Shown here one piece after another: positions 2,494 through 50,257 of a stretch of DNA of 64,000 nucleotides. The position numbers were made by a program, and so were the translations under genes. Under the pieces are notes generated by a model that saw only the letters and a list, made by a program, of their open reading frames with translations, searched no databases and had not been told where the DNA came from. Every line of letters starts with the position of its first letter. Position 1 is the first letter of the stretch. The DNA comes from Cryobacterium arcticum (GTDB lineage: Bacteria > Actinomycetota > Actinomycetes > Actinomycetales > Microbacteriaceae). The stretch is taken from positions 496,001 through 560,000 of the forward strand of contig NZ_CP016282.1 in NCBI RefSeq assembly GCF_001679725.1. Reading direction: 5' to 3'.

Positions 2494-2700
2494 CGGGTCT
2501 CGACAAGCTCGACCGACGTAAGGGTCGCGCCCGTCGCGGTGGATGAGCCTGTCGGGTCTCCTAAGGGAGTGCACGTCCTTAGGGACCTCGTGACGTGCGT
2601 GCATGTCGCGCCCCCGTCGCTGGTCGAGCTTGTCGAGACCTCGTGACGTTCCTCGAGATCCGCTCACCCGGCGCGGTGGTTGGGCTTGTCGAAACCAGAG
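2494..2700. repeat. dispersed intergenic repeat copies (TCGACAAGCTCGACC type)
   Basis: This convergent intergenic stretch contains three copies of the repeat found throughout the window: GGTCTCGACAAGCTCGACC near 2494, GGTCGAGCTTGTCGAGACC near 2620, and a diverged GGTTGGGCTTGTCGAAACC near 2680. The first is in opposite orientation to the other two, so the pair can form a long hairpin. I see no gene in the interval. Confidence 0.75.
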
Positions 2701-23979: not shown

Positions 23980-24575
23980 GTCGGTCGAGCTTGTCGAGAC
24001 CCGGTGACCCGGCCTGTGTGCTTGTGTCGTCGTGGTTTCGACAAGCTCAACCAGCGTGTGGTTGCGACCGTCTAGTGGGTCGCGCCCAGTACGTCGGTCG
24101 AGCCTGTCGAGACCCGGTGACCCGGCCTGTGTGCTTGTGTCGTCGTGGTTTCGACAAGCTCAACCAGCGTGCGGTTGCGACCGTCTAGTGGGTCGCGCCC
24201 AGTACGTCGGTCGAGCCTGTCGAGACCCCGCGACCCGGCCTCTGCACGGATGTCATCGTGGTTTCGACAAGCTCAACCAGCGTGTGGGTTGCGATCGTCT
24301 TATGGGTGGCGCCCAGTACGTCGGTCGAGCCTGTCGAGACCCGGTGACCCGGCCTGCGAGCGGATGTCGTCGTGGTTTCGACAAGCTCAACCAGCGTGTG
24401 GGTTGCGATCGTCTTATGGGTCGCGCCCAGTACGTCGGTCGAGCCTGTCGAGACCCCGCGACCCGGCCTCTGCACGGATGTCATCGTGGTTTCGACAAGC
24501 TCAACCAGCGTGTGGGTTGCGACCGTCTTATGGGTCGCGCCCAGTACGTCGGTCGAGCCTGTCGAGACCCCGCGA
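23980..24575. repeat. tandem array of 113-114 bp units carrying the dispersed repeat
   Basis: Five full units start at 23980, 24093, 24206, 24320 and 24434, with a sixth partial unit at 24548. Each holds a GGTCGAGCCTGTCGAGACC block and, about 50 nt later, a GTTTCGACAAGCTCAACCA block in inverse sense, so each unit can fold into a hairpin. The array fills the gap between the convergent HPt-like and response regulator genes. Units differ by a few substitutions and one base of length. Confidence 0.92.
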
Positions 24576-28245: not shown

Positions 28246-28580
28246 GGTCGAGCTTGCCGAGACCTCGCGACGGGATCTCGACAAGCTCGATCACCGTGTG
28301 GTCGCGACTGCCACGCCGGCGAGCGTCCGCGACCGGTGCGTCGGTCGAGCTTGTCGAGACCTCGCGACGGGATCTCGACAAGCTCGATCACCGTGTGGTC
28401 GCGACTGCCACGCCGGCGAGCGTCCGCGACCGGTGCGTCGGTCGAGCCTGTCGAGACCTGGCGACCCGATCTCGACAAGCTCGATCACCGTGTGGTCGAG
28501 ACTGCCACGCCGGCGAGCGTCCGCGACCGGTACGTCGGTCGAGCTTGTCGAGACCTCGCGACCCGATCTCGACGCGCTCG
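28246..28580. repeat. tandem array of 97-bp units carrying the dispersed repeat
   Basis: Units start at 28246, 28343, 28440 and a partial one at 28537. Each holds GGTCGAGCTTGTCGAGACC (or the CCTG variant) and a close inverse-sense block TCTCGACAAGCTCGATCA, with a near-identical 40-bp spacer between units. It is related to the 23980 array only by the two blocks; the spacer sequence is different. It lies between mqo and the MFS gene; the remaining 28581-28667 shows no gene. Confidence 0.9.
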
Positions 28581-43682: not shown

Positions 43683-44927
43683 ATGTCACTAGGGTTACCC
43701 GGCCACCTGGTTCAGGCCACGCTGAGCCGTGCCCTCGCGCGTGCCTCGCACTGGTTTGGCTTGATTTGCCTGGGTGGCGCCCTGCTCTCGGTGATCGCGC
43801 TGAGCGTGTTCCCGCCCACCGACCGGCTGCTGGTCACGGTTGCCGCGATACTGGGCATGGGAGGTCTGCTGGCGCTCCTCGCCAAGTGGCGCACGGTGCC
43901 GCTCACGATCGCCTACTTGGTGATCGGCGCCGTCTGCACGTACCTCTTTACTGGCGCCGTGCTGGGCATGCCCGGCGTGTTCCCGGCATCGGACATGTTC
44001 CTTATCTCCCTGCCGAAGATGGCGCTCATCATGGTCGGCGGTGCCGGGTCGGGTGCGCTCGTCGGGGTGCTGTGGAGCACCGTCGGCTTTCTGATGGCGG
44101 AGGTGTCAGCCACGCTCGCCGTGTCACAGACTCCGGTGCCTGACCGCCCCGACATCTTCACCATCGTCACCTACCTCTTCCTGGTGGGGGTGATGCTGCT
44201 CGACGGGCTGGCCCGCCGCACCGGGCGCACCGCGCAGCCGGCGATTCACCGTGCGGTGCAGGATGACGAGTCCCGAAGCCTGCGCCACGACTTCGACCTG
44301 CGCGCGGTGGCGCTCATGCACGACACCACCCTCAACCAGCTGGTGTCGGTGGCCCGCGCCAAACCCGGCCCCATGACCCCTGCGCTCGAGGCTGCCGTGC
44401 GCGAGACTCTGCAAACTCTCGAACAACGCGACTGGCTCACCCATGTCGACGAACGCACCGCCACGTCGCCGGGCAGTGACGGATGGCTCTCCAGCTCCGT
44501 CTTCGCCACCATCGACCGCATGCGGGACCGCGGCCTGGTCGTCGACATCACCGGCGACAAGGAAGCCCTGGCGCGCCTGGACGCCCAGAGCGACCGCGAA
44601 CTGGGCCTGGCCGTTCAGCAATGCCTGGTCAACGTGCTGCTGCACGCCGGCATTGTCACCGCGGAGGTCGTCATCGATGCCGACGAGCAGAACGTGTCGG
44701 TCATGGTGCTGGACGCGGGGCGCGGCTTCATGGAAGCCGAAACCGGCAGCGACCGGCTCGGGCTGCGCCAGTCGGTGCGCAAACGCATCGAACGGCTCGG
44801 CGGCTCCGTGCAGGTGTGGTCGCGGCCCGGCGCCGGCACCTCGGTGTTGCTCACTCTGCCCGCGCCGCCCGCCAGCCCCGAAGCTCCCACCTCGCCCGCC
44901 GTTCCAGCCATCGAGCCCACCCCGTGA
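43683..44927 (+). CDS. histidine-kinase-like membrane protein
   Basis: 414 aa. The ATG at 43683 follows GGAGAGG. About five membrane helices (25-175) precede a helical segment with ALMHDTTLNQLVSVA (candidate His213) and a HATPase domain with QQCLVNVLLHAG (Asn317), LDAGRGF and RLGLRQSVRKRIERLGGSVQVWSRPGAGTSV. This is the NarL-type/HPK7 kinase layout. It overlaps the next gene by 4 bp (GTGA) and forms a split version of the double-module kinase at 47744. Its regulator is probably the LuxR-type protein at 47097. Confidence 0.82.
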   Translation: MSLGLPGHLVQATLSRALARASHWFGLICLGGALLSVIALSVFPPTDRLLVTVAAILGMGGLLALLAKWRTVPLTIAYLVIGAVCTYLFTGAVLGMPGVFPASDMFLISLPKMALIMVGGAGSGALVGVLWSTVGFLMAEVSATLAVSQTPVPDRPDIFTIVTYLFLVGVMLLDGLARRTGRTAQPAIHRAVQDDESRSLRHDFDLRAVALMHDTTLNQLVSVARAKPGPMTPALEAAVRETLQTLEQRDWLTHVDERTATSPGSDGWLSSSVFATIDRMRDRGLVVDITGDKEALARLDAQSDRELGLAVQQCLVNVLLHAGIVTAEVVIDADEQNVSVMVLDAGRGFMEAETGSDRLGLRQSVRKRIERLGGSVQVWSRPGAGTSVLLTLPAPPASPEAPTSPAVPAIEPTP

Positions 44928-46207
44928 CGCCGCGCCGCGCCACCCAGCAACGCCTCGACCCGCTGGGCACCCTCGCCGCCTGGCCCCTCGCGCCACTCAT
45001 CGCCGCGATCGTGCTCTGTTACTCCGTCATCGCCACGGTTCTGCAACAGAGCCAGATCCAGAATCCCCTCTTGGCGACCCTCGCGGTACTGGCGATGGCC
45101 GCCGCGGCCGGCATCCTGGTGCTCGCCACCCAGCCGGCCAACGCCCCGTTCGACGGTCGACTGCACCTGGCGATGCTCGGATTCGCGCTGCTCGGCTACC
45201 TCCTCGAACAGTTCAGCCGGTGGGGCGGCAACCTGCTTGTGCAAGACGACTTCGGGCCGGTCTGCATCGGGTTCCTGCTGCTCGCGCTGGCGCCCTACCG
45301 GCCCTGGCGGGAGATCGCCCTCTCCGGTGCCGCCGCCAGTGTCGTGGCCATCGTGATCACCGTTCCGCAGCAGCCTTACTACGAGATCACCGTCCCCATC
45401 GCGGTGTATGCGATCGTTTCCGCCACCCAGATTCTTGCGCCCGCCGCTGCCGGAGCGGCGTACTCGCGGCGGATCGTGCGCTCCATCCTGGCCTGGCAAG
45501 AGGATGCCCGCCGTGCCATCGTGGCTCGCACCGAAGAAGCGCGCGGCCAGATGGCCCGCGCCGTGGTGGAACAACAGATCGCGGCCCTGAGGTCCGGCGT
45601 CATCCCTTTCCTCACCGAGCTGCTCGAGCGCCGCAGCGTTTCTGCCGTCGACATCGCCCACGCCGGTCAGCTGGCCGCAGACGTGCGCCGCACGCTCGTT
45701 GCCGAGTTCGACCGCACCTGGCTGGACTCGGTGGCGACCCGGGAACGCGCCGCCCTCACCGAGCGGGGCACCCCGGGCTTGCTCGTGGTCGCCGACCCCG
45801 ACCACCGCGCCAACGCCTTCCGCGCCGAGCAACGTGCCGCGACCGCCGCGCTGATCGGGGCCCTCTGCGCCGCACCGGGCTTCGACCCGCACAGCCTCGT
45901 CGTGCAGATCGCCGGCGCCGCCAAACCCGGCGCCGCCAACGCCTTGCAGCCGCTGGTCGACACGATGACGATTCAGGCCGCGCTCGACCTCCCTCCCCGC
46001 CGAGTTCGCGCGGTGTTGCGGCCCTACCTCGGAGTCATCCGCGTGGTCTTCGACAACGTGCGGGTCACCGTGCGCCGCCCCTCACTCACGATCGAATTCG
46101 ACAGCGTCCGGGCATCGCACGCCGCCGACCAGGCGGACGAGGCGCCGGCCACCCCTGCCACCCCCGCAGGGGTGCGCGCGCGCCACACGCCCCGCCAAGT
46201 ACGCTGA
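44924..46207 (+). CDS. membrane companion of the histidine-kinase-like protein
   Basis: 427 aa. Six or so membrane helices in the first 180 residues, then a helical region (EEARGQMARAVVEQQIAALRSG) and a C-terminal domain with alternating strands (VRAVLRPYLGVIRVVFDNVRVTV). No kinase N or G boxes are visible, so it looks like a catalytically dead kinase paralogue. The start GTG overlaps the upstream stop. The same architecture forms the second half of the protein at 47744-50257. Confidence 0.65.
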   Translation: MTPRRATQQRLDPLGTLAAWPLAPLIAAIVLCYSVIATVLQQSQIQNPLLATLAVLAMAAAAGILVLATQPANAPFDGRLHLAMLGFALLGYLLEQFSRWGGNLLVQDDFGPVCIGFLLLALAPYRPWREIALSGAAASVVAIVITVPQQPYYEITVPIAVYAIVSATQILAPAAAGAAYSRRIVRSILAWQEDARRAIVARTEEARGQMARAVVEQQIAALRSGVIPFLTELLERRSVSAVDIAHAGQLAADVRRTLVAEFDRTWLDSVATRERAALTERGTPGLLVVADPDHRANAFRAEQRAATAALIGALCAAPGFDPHSLVVQIAGAAKPGAANALQPLVDTMTIQAALDLPPRRVRAVLRPYLGVIRVVFDNVRVTVRRPSLTIEFDSVRASHAADQADEAPATPATPAGVRARHTPRQVR

Positions 46208-46276: not shown

Positions 46277-47026
46277 ATGGCGAAACTGTATTTCCGATAC
46301 GGGGCGATGAACAGCGGCAAGAGCACCTCGATGCTCCAGGCCGCCTACAACTATGAGGAGCGCGGCCACCGCGTCCTGCTTACCAAACCCTCCATCGATA
46401 CCAAGGGTGACCGTGGAATCCTCTCTCGCCTGGGCGTCACCCGCGGGGTCGACTTCCTGCTCACGCCCGACACGGATGCGTACACCGCGTTCCAGGAACA
46501 CCGCGCCGCCGTGCTCGCCGGCACCGGCCTCGACGTGAGCGCCCTGCTCGTCGACGAGGCCCAGTTCCTCACCGAACCGCAGGTGGACGACCTGCTGCGC
46601 ATCGCCATCATCGAGAACGTGCCGGTGCTGGCGTACGGCATCCGCACTGATTTCCAGACCGTCGCGTTCCCGGGCAGCCGCCGGCTGCTCGAGGTGGCGC
46701 ACAGCCTAGAGGAGCTCAAGACCATCTGCCGGTGCGGGCGCAAGGCCGTCTTCAACGGCCGCAAGGTCGACGGGGCCTTCGTCTTCGACGGCGACCAGGT
46801 CGCCATCGACGGTGTGGAGGTCACCTACGAATCGCTCTGCGGTTCCTGCTACCTCGAGGAAAGCCACGGCGTGCTCAACAACCGCCGCCGCGAGGCGCTG
46901 CGGCACGAGGCGGGGCACGGGGGCCAGGAGCGGGGGCGCTCAACCGACGGGAGCCTGCAGAACGCAGACAGTTTCGTCGAGAGCGCCCCAGCCAGCCCCC
47001 CGGCGCGTTCCCCTTCACCACAGTAA
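46277..47026 (+). CDS. tdk: thymidine kinase
   Basis: 249 aa; phosphorylates thymidine for salvage. P-loop YGAMNSGKSTSML (about 8-20), Walker B ALLVDEAQFL, lasso segment, and a zinc ribbon with CRCGRKA and CGSC are present, as in type II (TK1-like) thymidine kinases. The last about 40 residues (after NNRRREALRHEAG) are a Ser/Pro-rich tail not found in short family members. It sits between the split kinase pair and the response regulator, an odd place for a nucleotide-salvage gene. Confidence 0.94.
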   Translation: MAKLYFRYGAMNSGKSTSMLQAAYNYEERGHRVLLTKPSIDTKGDRGILSRLGVTRGVDFLLTPDTDAYTAFQEHRAAVLAGTGLDVSALLVDEAQFLTEPQVDDLLRIAIIENVPVLAYGIRTDFQTVAFPGSRRLLEVAHSLEELKTICRCGRKAVFNGRKVDGAFVFDGDQVAIDGVEVTYESLCGSCYLEESHGVLNNRRREALRHEAGHGGQERGRSTDGSLQNADSFVESAPASPPARSPSPQ

Positions 47027-47096: not shown

Positions 47097-47747
47097 ATGC
47101 ACAGGTACCGGGTGGCGATGATCGACGACCACGAGATTGTCGCGCGCGGGTTCGCCGGTCTCTTCGACACCATCCCGGAGATCCATGTGGTGGCGACTGT
47201 CGCCACCGTAGCAGAGCTGCTCGATCAGGTGGGGGAGACCCACATCGACCTCGTCATTCTCGACCTGCGACTCTCCGACGGTTCCACCGTCACCGGCAAC
47301 GTCGACCGGTTGCGCGCCACGGGTGCGGCCGTGCTCGCGTTCACCGGCGGTGACGACGCCCAGCTCATGCGCGCCGCCGCCCGCAGCGGCGTGCTCGGCG
47401 TCGTGCGCAAATCCGAACCGGCGAACGTGCTCCTCGACGCCGTCACCCGCGCCGCGGCCGGCGACACCATCGCCTCCACCGAGTGGGCGGCGGCTCTTGA
47501 TGGCGACCCCGACCTGTCCGACGCCGGCCTCAGCCCCCGGGAGCGGGAGGTGCTCTCCCTCTACGCCGCGGGTGCGAAGGCACCGCTCGTGGCCTCGCAC
47601 ACCGGGCTGTCAGAACTCACGGTGGTGGACTACATCCGCCGGGTGCGCTCGAAGTATGAACGGGTGGGCCGGCCCGCCAGCACCAAGATCGACCTGTACA
47701 AGCGTGCGCTGGAGGACGGCATCCTACCGGTGCCCGGACGCTCATGA
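47097..47747 (+). CDS. LuxR/NarL-type response regulator
   Basis: 216 aa from the ATG at 47097 (GAGAGGAAG upstream). Receiver domain: DDHEIV acidic pair, phospho-Asp56 in DLVILDLRLSDGS, Thr in LAFTGGDD, Lys in GVVRKSEP. The C-terminal LuxR helix-turn-helix (about 150-205) begins LSPREREVLSLYAAG and contains TVVDYIRRVRSKYERVGRPAS. It overlaps the next kinase gene by 4 bp (ATGA), giving a standard two-component pair. Confidence 0.92.
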   Translation: MHRYRVAMIDDHEIVARGFAGLFDTIPEIHVVATVATVAELLDQVGETHIDLVILDLRLSDGSTVTGNVDRLRATGAAVLAFTGGDDAQLMRAAARSGVLGVVRKSEPANVLLDAVTRAAAGDTIASTEWAAALDGDPDLSDAGLSPREREVLSLYAAGAKAPLVASHTGLSELTVVDYIRRVRSKYERVGRPASTKIDLYKRALEDGILPVPGRS

Positions 47748-50257
47748 GCGCGCAGGATCCGCTGGTCGAGTCGTCTGCGCTGGTCGAGCCTGTCGAGACC
47801 AAGCCCCCCACGTCGGTCGAGCCCCCTTCGCTGGTCGAGCCTGTCGAGACCAAGCCGACCCCGCCGGCCGAGACCCTCGTCAAGCCCCTCACCGCCACCG
47901 CCAACCTCATCCGGCTGCTCTGCATCGCCGTAGCGTGTGCGGCCGCGATCTTCGGCGTGCTCTCGATCGGCACCTTCACCGCGCAGATCTGGCATCCGAG
48001 CCCGGGGCTGGCCGTCGCGGCATGGGCGGCGTCCTTCGGCCTGCCCGTGACGCTGGGCGTCTGTTCCCGATGGGCCTCGGTGCGGGCGCTGCGCCTGATC
48101 GTGGCCGCCGAGGTGTTCTGCTTCATCGCCATCACCGGTTTCTGGCTCCTGGTGCGGCCCGACCCGCTGCCGGCCGGCGCCGACATCCCCTGGGCGATCA
48201 CCTTCACCGGGGTGCCCTGCGTGGCGGTGGCGATCTTCGCCCGCGGCAGAACGGCCTGGGCATTCACGATCCTCGCCTGCACGCTCAGCGGTCTGGTGCG
48301 GTTCAACACTTCGGCGGAGGCCAACCCGGCGCTCATCGGCCTGGCCGACGGGCTCTATTCATTGCTGCTGGTGAGCATTTTCGTGGCTCTCACCCTCGCC
48401 GCCCGCCGGGCCGCTGCACGCGTCGATGACGCGACCCTGCTTACCCGGCAGGCCGAGGCCGAGCGGGCCGCCAAGGTGGCCCGCCGCCAGGAACGTCTGA
48501 GCATCGACGCCCTTGTGCACGACAGTGTCATCTCCACCCTGCTCATGGCCGGGCTCGGCCGCACCGCACCGGCCGTGGTGGCCGAGCACGCGTCGAAGAC
48601 CCTGTGGCAGCTCGACGCCCTCCGCTCCCCGCCGGTGCAACCCGTCGTCCTGGTGTCGGACCTCCTGCGCCGGCTCACCCGGCTGACCCGCCAGATCGCG
48701 CCGGATGCGGTTGTGCGGGTCGACAACGCGGGCACTCCGTCCGGCGTCGCGCCGGTGGAGCGCACCGTGCCGTCCGATGCCGTGGCGGCGATCCTCGGCG
48801 CCGTCGGCGAGGCACTGCGCAACTCCGTCGCGTCGGCCGGTCCGGGGCCCCGGCGCAGCGCCGTCCGTGCGGTGCATCGCACCGTTACGGTGCTGTCCAC
48901 CTCCGCCGGTTTCCAGGTGACAGTGAGCGACGACGGCGTCGGCTTCGAGCCGGCCCGGGTGCCGCCGGAGCGCCTCGGCATCAGCGAGAGCATCGTCGGG
49001 CGCATGCAGCGGGTGCCGAACGGTGTGGCCAATGTGCGCTCCCACCCCGGCCGGGGCACCGACATCGTGATCGCCTGGGTGCCCGAGCGCAGCTCTGCGG
49101 TGGTCGAGCCTGTCGAGACCCGCGACCCAACCCGCCCACCGCGCACCCCGGTGGTCGAGCCCACCCCCACGCTGGTCGAGCCTGTCGAGACCTCCCCCCG
49201 CGACCGCCGAACCGCCGAACGCCAGCCGGAAACCCCACCGCCCGCTGCGGCCAAGTCCTACTCCCTGTCCCGGGCGCTCGACCTCTCTACGCCTCTGCCC
49301 CGGCTGATCCTCGCCCTGTTCGTGCTCGTGCACGGTGTGCTCGCCATCATCGCCATTGTGCCGGGCCGGCCGTTGGCCGAGATGGCTGCCGCTTACCTGG
49401 CGATCGTGTTCGCGGCCATCTCGCTGATGCGTCCCCTCCGCGAGCCGTTCCCGCGGTCTCAGATCGCCATCGTCTTGGGCCTCTGCGGCGTCGGCGCGGT
49501 GCTGATGTTCATCTATTTACCGCCGCACAGCGGAGTTCCGTTCGCCCACTGGCACCTCGGTGCGATCACCCTGATCCTGGTGGTGCTGGCCGCACGAGGT
49601 CAGATCCGCGCGGCCTGGATCGGCTACGCCGTGCTCGCGCTTTCTGCCGTGGCGTGGGCCGTGGCCACCGGCCAGTCGGTGGGCGCAGGCATCGAGCTGG
49701 TGGTCCGGCACGCCGGCACTCTGCTGGCCGGCACCCTGTTCGTGGTGGGACTGGACCGCACCGAGGCAACCCTGCGGGTACTCACCCACGACGACATCGC
49801 CCGCGCACGCTGCGACGCCACCACGGTGGCCGCGCTGGACGAACGCGAAGCTGAACTGAGACGGGTGAACCTGCTCGCCCGGCCCACCCTGCAGATGCTC
49901 GCCGCACCGCACGTGCTCACCGCGCCCGAGCGCGCCCAATGCCTGCTCGTGGAGGCGCGCCTCCGCGACGCGATTCGCGGCCGCGCCCTGTTCGTGCCGC
50001 AGGTCACCGAGGCGGTCACCGCAGCGCGGCAGCGCGGGGTAGACGTCACCGTGCTCGACGACAGCGGCGACACCCCGCCCGACGGCCTCGCTGCGCTCGC
50101 CCACACCGTCGCCGAGGTGCTCGGCACCGTGCAGCACGGCCGGGTCACCGTGCGGGTGCTCCCGGCCGGCCGGCCCGAAATCGCGACCCTGGTGATCGAG
50201 TCAGGCGCCCAGCGCATCCTCACCGTCGGCCCGGATGGCGCGGTACGCACCCCCTGA
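47744..50257 (+). CDS. double-module sensor kinase with in-frame repeat linkers
   Basis: 837 aa. The N-terminus (1-45) is a Pro/Glu/Val/Thr linker encoded by dispersed repeats (VEPVET at 14-19 and 31-36). Membrane helices fill about 50-220. A kinase core follows: LSIDALVHDSVISTLL (candidate His259), GEALRNSVASAG (Asn360), SDDGVGFEP, and HPGRGTDIVIAWVPE (to about 445). A second repeat-coded linker (446-500; VEPVET at 454 and 478) leads into a second set of membrane helices (about 515-675) and a cytosolic domain without kinase boxes. Module one matches the protein at 43683 in layout, module two that at 44924, so this looks like a fused version of that pair. It partners the regulator at 47097. 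Confidence 0.85.
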   Translation: MSAQDPLVESSALVEPVETKPPTSVEPPSLVEPVETKPTPPAETLVKPLTATANLIRLLCIAVACAAAIFGVLSIGTFTAQIWHPSPGLAVAAWAASFGLPVTLGVCSRWASVRALRLIVAAEVFCFIAITGFWLLVRPDPLPAGADIPWAITFTGVPCVAVAIFARGRTAWAFTILACTLSGLVRFNTSAEANPALIGLADGLYSLLLVSIFVALTLAARRAAARVDDATLLTRQAEAERAAKVARRQERLSIDALVHDSVISTLLMAGLGRTAPAVVAEHASKTLWQLDALRSPPVQPVVLVSDLLRRLTRLTRQIAPDAVVRVDNAGTPSGVAPVERTVPSDAVAAILGAVGEALRNSVASAGPGPRRSAVRAVHRTVTVLSTSAGFQVTVSDDGVGFEPARVPPERLGISESIVGRMQRVPNGVANVRSHPGRGTDIVIAWVPERSSAVVEPVETRDPTRPPRTPVVEPTPTLVEPVETSPRDRRTAERQPETPPPAAAKSYSLSRALDLSTPLPRLILALFVLVHGVLAIIAIVPGRPLAEMAAAYLAIVFAAISLMRPLREPFPRSQIAIVLGLCGVGAVLMFIYLPPHSGVPFAHWHLGAITLILVVLAARGQIRAAWIGYAVLALSAVAWAVATGQSVGAGIELVVRHAGTLLAGTLFVVGLDRTEATLRVLTHDDIARARCDATTVAALDEREAELRRVNLLARPTLQMLAAPHVLTAPERAQCLLVEARLRDAIRGRALFVPQVTEAVTAARQRGVDVTVLDDSGDTPPDGLAALAHTVAEVLGTVQHGRVTVRVLPAGRPEIATLVIESGAQRILTVGPDGAVRTP
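47782..47851 (+). repeat. dispersed repeat, two copies inside the kinase coding region
   Basis: GGTCGAGCCTGTCGAGACC at 47782-47800 and 47833-47851 is identical to blocks in the intergenic arrays, yet is read in frame as VEPVET near the N-terminus of the kinase. Confidence 0.92.
49102..49192 (+). repeat. dispersed repeat, two copies at the internal module junction
   Basis: The same 19-bp block occurs at 49102-49120 and 49174-49192, again read as VEPVET, exactly between the ATPase domain and the second membrane module of the kinase. Confidence 0.92.

Follow-up and report, generated by a model that had tools for sequence, protein, structure and literature searches.

In-frame copies of a REP-like intergenic repeat in the tail and linker of a fused sensor kinase of Cryobacterium arcticum

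A 64,000-nucleotide stretch of Cryobacterium arcticum DNA (contig NZ_CP016282.1, positions 496,001 to 560,000; hereafter the window) carries a gene for a fused sensor kinase of 837 residues (47744..50257, + strand) that contains four exact copies of the 19-mer GGTCGAGCCTGTCGAGACC, a dispersed repeat resembling the repetitive extragenic palindromic (REP) elements. It is highly probable that this REP-like intergenic repeat entered the N-terminal tail and the interdomain linker of an already fused kinase in frame, and that it was kept and multiplied because both tethers tolerate it. The copies are present, in frame, identical to intergenic copies down to a rare codon and absent from many fused relatives. 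The state of the kinase gene has changed at least twice, and unrelated proteins show events of this kind as well. The repeat lengthened an existing joint in the kinase and did not fuse two genes.

The kinase, encoded throughout on the + strand, begins with a mostly disordered tail (residues 1-50, 47744..47893) that holds two of the copies together with partial VE/VEP units. The first half (residues 51-448, 47894..49087) comprises a membrane module, a long helix with an HDSV histidine motif and a HATPase domain. It is followed by the linker (residues 449-516, 49088..49291), which lies where split orthologues have their gene junction, and by the second half (residues 517-837, 49292..50254), formed by a membrane module, a long helix and a degenerate histidine-kinase-like domain without the invariant His. 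All four copies are on the + strand in the frame of the gene and are translated as VEPVET, two in the tail at residues 14-19 (47782..47800) and 31-36 (47833..47851), and two in the linker at residues 454-459 (49102..49120) and 478-483 (49174..49192), as the initial annotation had described. The only runs with an AlphaFold predicted local distance difference test score below 50 are residues 1-33, 40-44 and 449-499; three of the copies lie within these runs and copy 2 sits on the edge of one. The sequence of the gene behaves as coding, least strongly in the linker. No ATG, GTG or TTG is found between codon 1 and codon 72, and codon 72 is located within the first hydrophobic segment, so that the tail copies would be translated in any protein that includes this segment. 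On this evidence, which is that of the codons alone, the possibility that the tail copies are untranslated was rejected. When the linker (residues 445-500) was used alone as a protein query, only the kinase itself matched among 138 candidates.

With up to three mismatches, GGTCGAGCCTGTCGAGACC matches 24 times in the window against 0.11 expected, and the C. arcticum genome contains 151 exact copies of the 19-mer and 501 copies of the IUPAC form GGTYGAGCYTGTCGARACC. Among the 136 exact copies examined, 128 are intergenic and 8 lie within four predicted genes, while the coding share of the DNA fetched around them is 75%. Thus the earlier description of the repeat as otherwise confined to intergenic arrays holds for the window but not for the genome. 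The window displays two such arrays, at 23983..24569, with an inverted variant copy paired approximately every 113 bp, and at 28246..28555, with a period of ~97 bp; in both, copies of the 19-mer alternate with inverted variants. A further inverted pair of one-mismatch copies (2496..2640) is located between genes. The sole pair that was folded, 24090-24170, gives -42.7 kcal/mol (z -5.4). Copies with both neighbours (n=119) lie between tandem genes in 78 cases, convergent genes in 36 and divergent genes in 5, as against 174/36/28 for gene pairs (n=238), a count in which clustered copies are not independent. The IUPAC form is present in 47 of 57 Cryobacterium genomes, in 15 of 80 genomes sampled from the family and in 4 of 246 sampled from the phylum, C. 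arcticum being included each time. Rfam returned no RNA family match anywhere in the window. By its abundance, its inverted pairs and its placement between genes the repeat resembles the GTAG/CGTC REPs, which are described, in the available parts of PMC3733652, as short, intergenic, often arranged as inverted pairs and mostly located between tandem or convergent genes. In contrast, the published families have, by the same parts of that article, a terminal CGTC or GTAG tetranucleotide and, in the CGTC families, a stem of 8-9 bp, whereas the Cryobacterium 19-mer has an outer stem of just 4 bp (by inspection) and mixed bases on its 5' side (CGCT, CGTC, CGGT and others), the CGTC tag preceding some copies only. 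Actinobacteria are not among the phyla that those parts list for the GTAG and CGTC tags (PMC3733652). A linked tyrosine transposase (RAYT) is a feature of the GTAG type alone.

The kinase is one of several proteins that carry the repeat. The eight exact in-gene copies of C. arcticum are distributed over the kinase (four), an alpha/beta-hydrolase and AMP-ligase fusion (one), an MFS transporter (two) and RecQ (one). The hydrolase/AMP-ligase fusion, which we take to be OleBC-like, bears, in the stretch that separates its domains, the exact copy together with an inverted variant; the MFS copies are located after the first membrane half, and the RecQ copy is read from the opposite strand as VSTGST between two helicase domains. 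Relatives of these proteins, given here under the handles of the analysis, differ at the same sites. The OleBC-like protein was found in 16/16 genomes searched and has no VExVET in the linkers of G042, G055, G043, G003, G017 and G056, with lone VEP or VEL units in the last three; in G038 and G048 the linker carries long arrays of VEP/VEPVET. At L114:1444-4287 an alpha/beta hydrolase is fused to an AMP-binding ligase (OleBC-like), and linkers are VEP/VEPVET-rich in many relatives. The MFS protein, present in 6 of the 16 genomes, has a loop with none of these units in G042, one VELVET in G044 and several in G004. Similarly the RecQ loop (6 genomes) shows VSTGST or VSTSST in G041 and G044 and neither in G004, G017, G031 and G040.

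In a second genome, G009, 108 of 203 C/T-form copies were sampled; 87 are intergenic and 21 lie in predicted genes, with four of these 21 in short or terminal gene calls, possibly erroneous. The hosts in which Pfam domains were recognised are GcvP, a 2-oxoacid-dehydrogenase E2, a class I tRNA synthetase, a HrpA-type helicase, an RND transporter (repeat after the first half), a GntR regulator (repeat in the N-terminal tail) and RecQ. The E2 protein (L229) displays five VEPVETs at 11-residue spacing between its E3-binding and catalytic domains, and the count among orthologues ranges from zero (G006) to these five; the C. arcticum genome and G031 gave no match to an E2 of this kind at E 1e-40. 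In GcvP (L219) a single loop holds four VSTGST units as a Gly/Ser/Thr insertion, and the protein has 1015 residues compared with 965 in C. arcticum, whose GcvP lacks the repeat. Among 113 parsed rows (8 of the 121 GcvP rows were unparseable), this loop holds VST[GS]ST in 2, G009 included, and VExVET in 2 others, which indicates that the same loop received the repeat in both orientations. Most in-gene copies occupy linkers or loops, and VEPVET and VSTGST predominate among the six frames. These two account for 13/16 gene cases (p 1e-4 against 1/3), in a tally made by hand that includes the short or terminal predictions L202, L216, L218 and L220, takes the OleBC-like gene in both orientations and omits G048, whose kinase uses a third frame. 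Two repeat sites, at residue 800 of the tRNA synthetase and residue 831 of the HrpA-type helicase, are inside domain envelopes rather than between domains. It is conceivable, though we hold it somewhat less likely than its contrary, that the repeat is a two-sided linker kit, inserted and expanded in interdomain linkers and surface loops of housekeeping proteins, with a Pro/Glu strand (VEPVET) and a Gly/Ser/Thr strand (VSTGST).

The coding copies retain the letters of the intergenic ones. Among homologues of the kinase, the MFS transporter and the OleBC-like protein, 39 of 49 VE[PLSR]VET stretches are identical to the intergenic 18-mer, and the Pro codon is CCT in 39 of 40 VEPVETs, a codon that serves 33 of 809 prolines (4%) in the window genes. 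Translation of the frequent intergenic flanks also yields residues that adjoin coding copies, the clearest case being ...TVVEPVETPRAD... of the MFS loop. Because the rare CCT and the 18-mer are shared in this way, an intergenic-to-coding origin of the VEPVET copies is well supported at the level of nucleotide sequence, and the recruitment of an intergenic repeat as coding sequence, proposed in the initial annotation, is upheld. The conservation of letters even at synonymous sites, together with the strong hairpin of the intergenic pair, could also mean that the copies are retained for a role at the DNA or RNA level (recombination site, RNA hairpin, protein binding) with the peptide as a by-product. 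This is improbable, as the kinase copies share one orientation and therefore lack a hairpin partner, seven of the eight exact in-gene copies of C. arcticum (four of these seven in the kinase) occupy a single frame, which suggests that selection acts on the peptide, and the identity is equally explained by recent arrival or gene conversion. Still less probable is that the linker is ordinary Val-Glu-Pro-rich sequence, produced by selection and slippage, that merely resembles the intergenic repeat. Lone VEP units are common, and of the 97 counted, 74 encode Pro by a codon that is not CCT; many long linkers have no repeat. The codon bias, 18-mer identity and extended flank match of the VEPVETs speak against this reading, as does the fact that further genes read the repeat in different frames and from the opposite strand. 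The lone units may in part be of this ordinary kind.

The order of events in the kinase is indicated by its orthologues. Of 57 Cryobacterium genomes searched, 44 contain a readable orthologue, 12 have distant kinase homologues only and one (G021) has the gene cut by a contig end. The orthologue is fused in 41 and split in three (G023, G054, G052). The 19-mer at up to three mismatches is found in the kinase gene of 9 of the 44 genomes and absent from 35, comprising 32 fused and the 3 split. Eight of the nine (G000, G041, G031, G017, G035, G056, G001 and G038) hold 21 copies together, all in the VEPVET frame, while the three copies of G048 are in the SSLSRP frame. Across 99 kinase homologues found by homology, the C. 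arcticum protein included, 10 contain VExVET. The L018 orthologue, 71% identical by BLASTP, is fused at the same place without any copy at this threshold, the finding that the initial annotation had named as one that would refute its reading. At split loci the first gene ends shortly after the ATPase domain and the second starts near that stop, its apparent start (starts being inferred) overlapping the end of the first gene by 4 to ~14 bases or following it by a few. No repeat occurs in the three split Cryobacterium orthologues, in three split homologues of other genera or in the split C. arcticum paralogue, all inspected for the arrangement of split genes with an intervening repeat that the initial annotation had proposed to look for.

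On a tree of 48 rows, from which the four most distant homologues were omitted, two changes account for the distribution of the repeat and two for that of the fused state. An earlier tree, whose 52 rows included distant paralogues, had required five changes between fused and split, and the kinase trees have long outgroup branches. A single clade of all fused orthologues is rejected (p-AU, approximately unbiased test, 7e-4, 48-row tree), which implies one or more fissions, or a second fusion. Most simply, the repeat entered the kinase twice, once in the eight-genome group in the VEPVET frame and once in another species in a different frame. The repeat-free fused orthologues and the two changes of the repeat on the tree make the linker older than the repeat within it. 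The proposal of the initial annotation that recombination between dispersed repeats had joined two genes, prompted by two copies at the junction position of split orthologues and by the existence of split homologues, is thus refuted for this gene by the repeat-free fused relatives, is further opposed by the repeat-free split loci, is very unlikely altogether, and is dispensable in that a small frame change would suffice to fuse genes that overlap or nearly abut. The repeat did lengthen the N-terminus, as had been suggested, but it did not create it, since repeat-free orthologues likewise have a variable tail. Overall, the original observation on the repeat-bearing kinase is partly confirmed and its interpretation partly supported. 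Further features were observed in or near genes of this family. The repeat-bearing kinase gene of G038 has an insertion near its end (L104:5354-6601) with a 415-residue transposase-like reading frame, presumably IS110-like; a run of seven one-mismatch repeat copies with a 29-bp period is located close to the 3' side of the G048 kinase gene (L012); and L095 (G011) displays a tandem pair of fused kinases of the same family.

Entry of the repeat into a pre-fused kinase would have been followed by retention and multiplication because the tail and the linker are both unstructured and would accept almost any soluble, stop-free sequence. The fused kinase may act as a covalent pseudo-dimer, in which half 1, with its membrane module, phospho-accepting His and ATPase, would pair with half 2, formed by a membrane module, a long helix and a degenerate kinase-like domain, and this pseudo-dimer would act on the response regulator encoded directly upstream. 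The linker would then need only sufficient length and solubility. Copies may arrive through insertion or recombination with intergenic copies and subsequently expand by tandem duplication; VEPVET, or VSTGST on the other strand, would survive because the linker is hydrophilic, while the remaining frames would yield peptides with Arg, Leu or Cys. Several points weigh against this account. Repeat-free linkers span 37-116 residues (20 rows) and repeat-bearing ones 51-87 (8 rows), so length tuning is unsupported. Although genomic copies number 25-501 in the nine genomes with kinase copies and 0-238 in the 35 others (Mann-Whitney p 2e-4), this rank test ignores relatedness, and abundance in the genome is not enough, as the copy-rich G009 (238), G004 (164), G044 (127) and G016 (108) have no repeat in the kinase. 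The resemblance of the second domain to kinase cores is drawn from weak structural matches, of a kind that helical membrane bundles readily produce; the two kinase-like cores of the fused protein compare with a non-significant profile probability of 6.4. A REP-like repeat that continually supplies linker sequence nevertheless remains the best reading.

In the first half of the kinase, the predicted phospho-accepting His and the HATPase domain of a sensor histidine kinase are both present. In the second half, the invariant His of an active histidine kinase is absent in 17 aligned rows, and the fold weakly resembles kinase cores. NCBIfam gave no match for the fused protein, and a sequence-profile search for solved structures gave none. 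Its closest known counterparts are sensor kinases with a LuxR-type partner, such as the MacS, LiaS and DesK groups. It shares with LuxR-partnered kinases the membrane module, the HD-type histidine motif, the HATPase domain and an adjoining LuxR-type regulator; in contrast to these, it has a second membrane module and the degenerate kinase-like domain fused on. The regulator, with a receiver and a LuxR-type helix-turn-helix (47097..47747, + strand, start inferred), has a stop that overlaps the ATG of the kinase gene as ATGA, and a thymidine kinase gene (46277-47026) lies directly 5' of it. A neighbouring pair of overlapping + strand genes, 43683..44927 (start taken from the initial annotation) and 44924..46207, had been regarded as the same two modules in split form. 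The layout is the same and the kinase core of the first gene is related to the fused kinase (hhalign probability 96.7), but the second gene has no significant match to the fused second half (5.3). C. arcticum also has paralogues of the same family, a fused one (816-residue frame) and a split pair, at G000:C1:638848-639834 and 706896-709054 (L143, L144).

Repeats read as protein in unrelated genes are already known. Rickettsia palindromic elements (RPEs), of ~150 bp with a conserved peptide, are found in frame within unrelated protein genes, according to the portions available of PMC10969869, and some GTAG/CGTC REPs lie inside open reading frames, with clusters encoding 43-82 residues, according to those of PMC3733652. 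The Cryobacterium repeat resembles RPEs as a dispersed repeat in frame in unrelated proteins, and copies absent from orthologues appear, from sequence comparison, in the kinase, the OleBC-like protein, MFS, RecQ, GcvP and E2. It differs in its 19-bp core, its repetition in direct orientation, its actinobacterial host, its location mostly in linkers or loops and its two main frames. No report of VEPVET, LVEPVE or VEPVEP was found in the openly available literature searched, and none of the Cryobacterium repeat or of REPs as linkers among the matches listed; the titles listed for the sequence of the repeat concerned other subjects. Within that literature the new elements are the repeat family and its genus, together with the preferred placement in linkers and loops, the two predominant frames and the graded orthologue series. 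Noncoding repeat DNA has here turned into protein sequence in a free-living bacterium, and related genomes display different stages, with none, one or several copies at the same site, so that how flexible linkers originate, and whether such insertions bring a cost or a benefit, can be tested directly. Where Cryobacterium proteins show VEPVET or VSTGST, the stretch probably derives from the repeat and is not a conserved motif. If the two-sided linker kit were real, linker lengths would change fast from species to species across the proteome.
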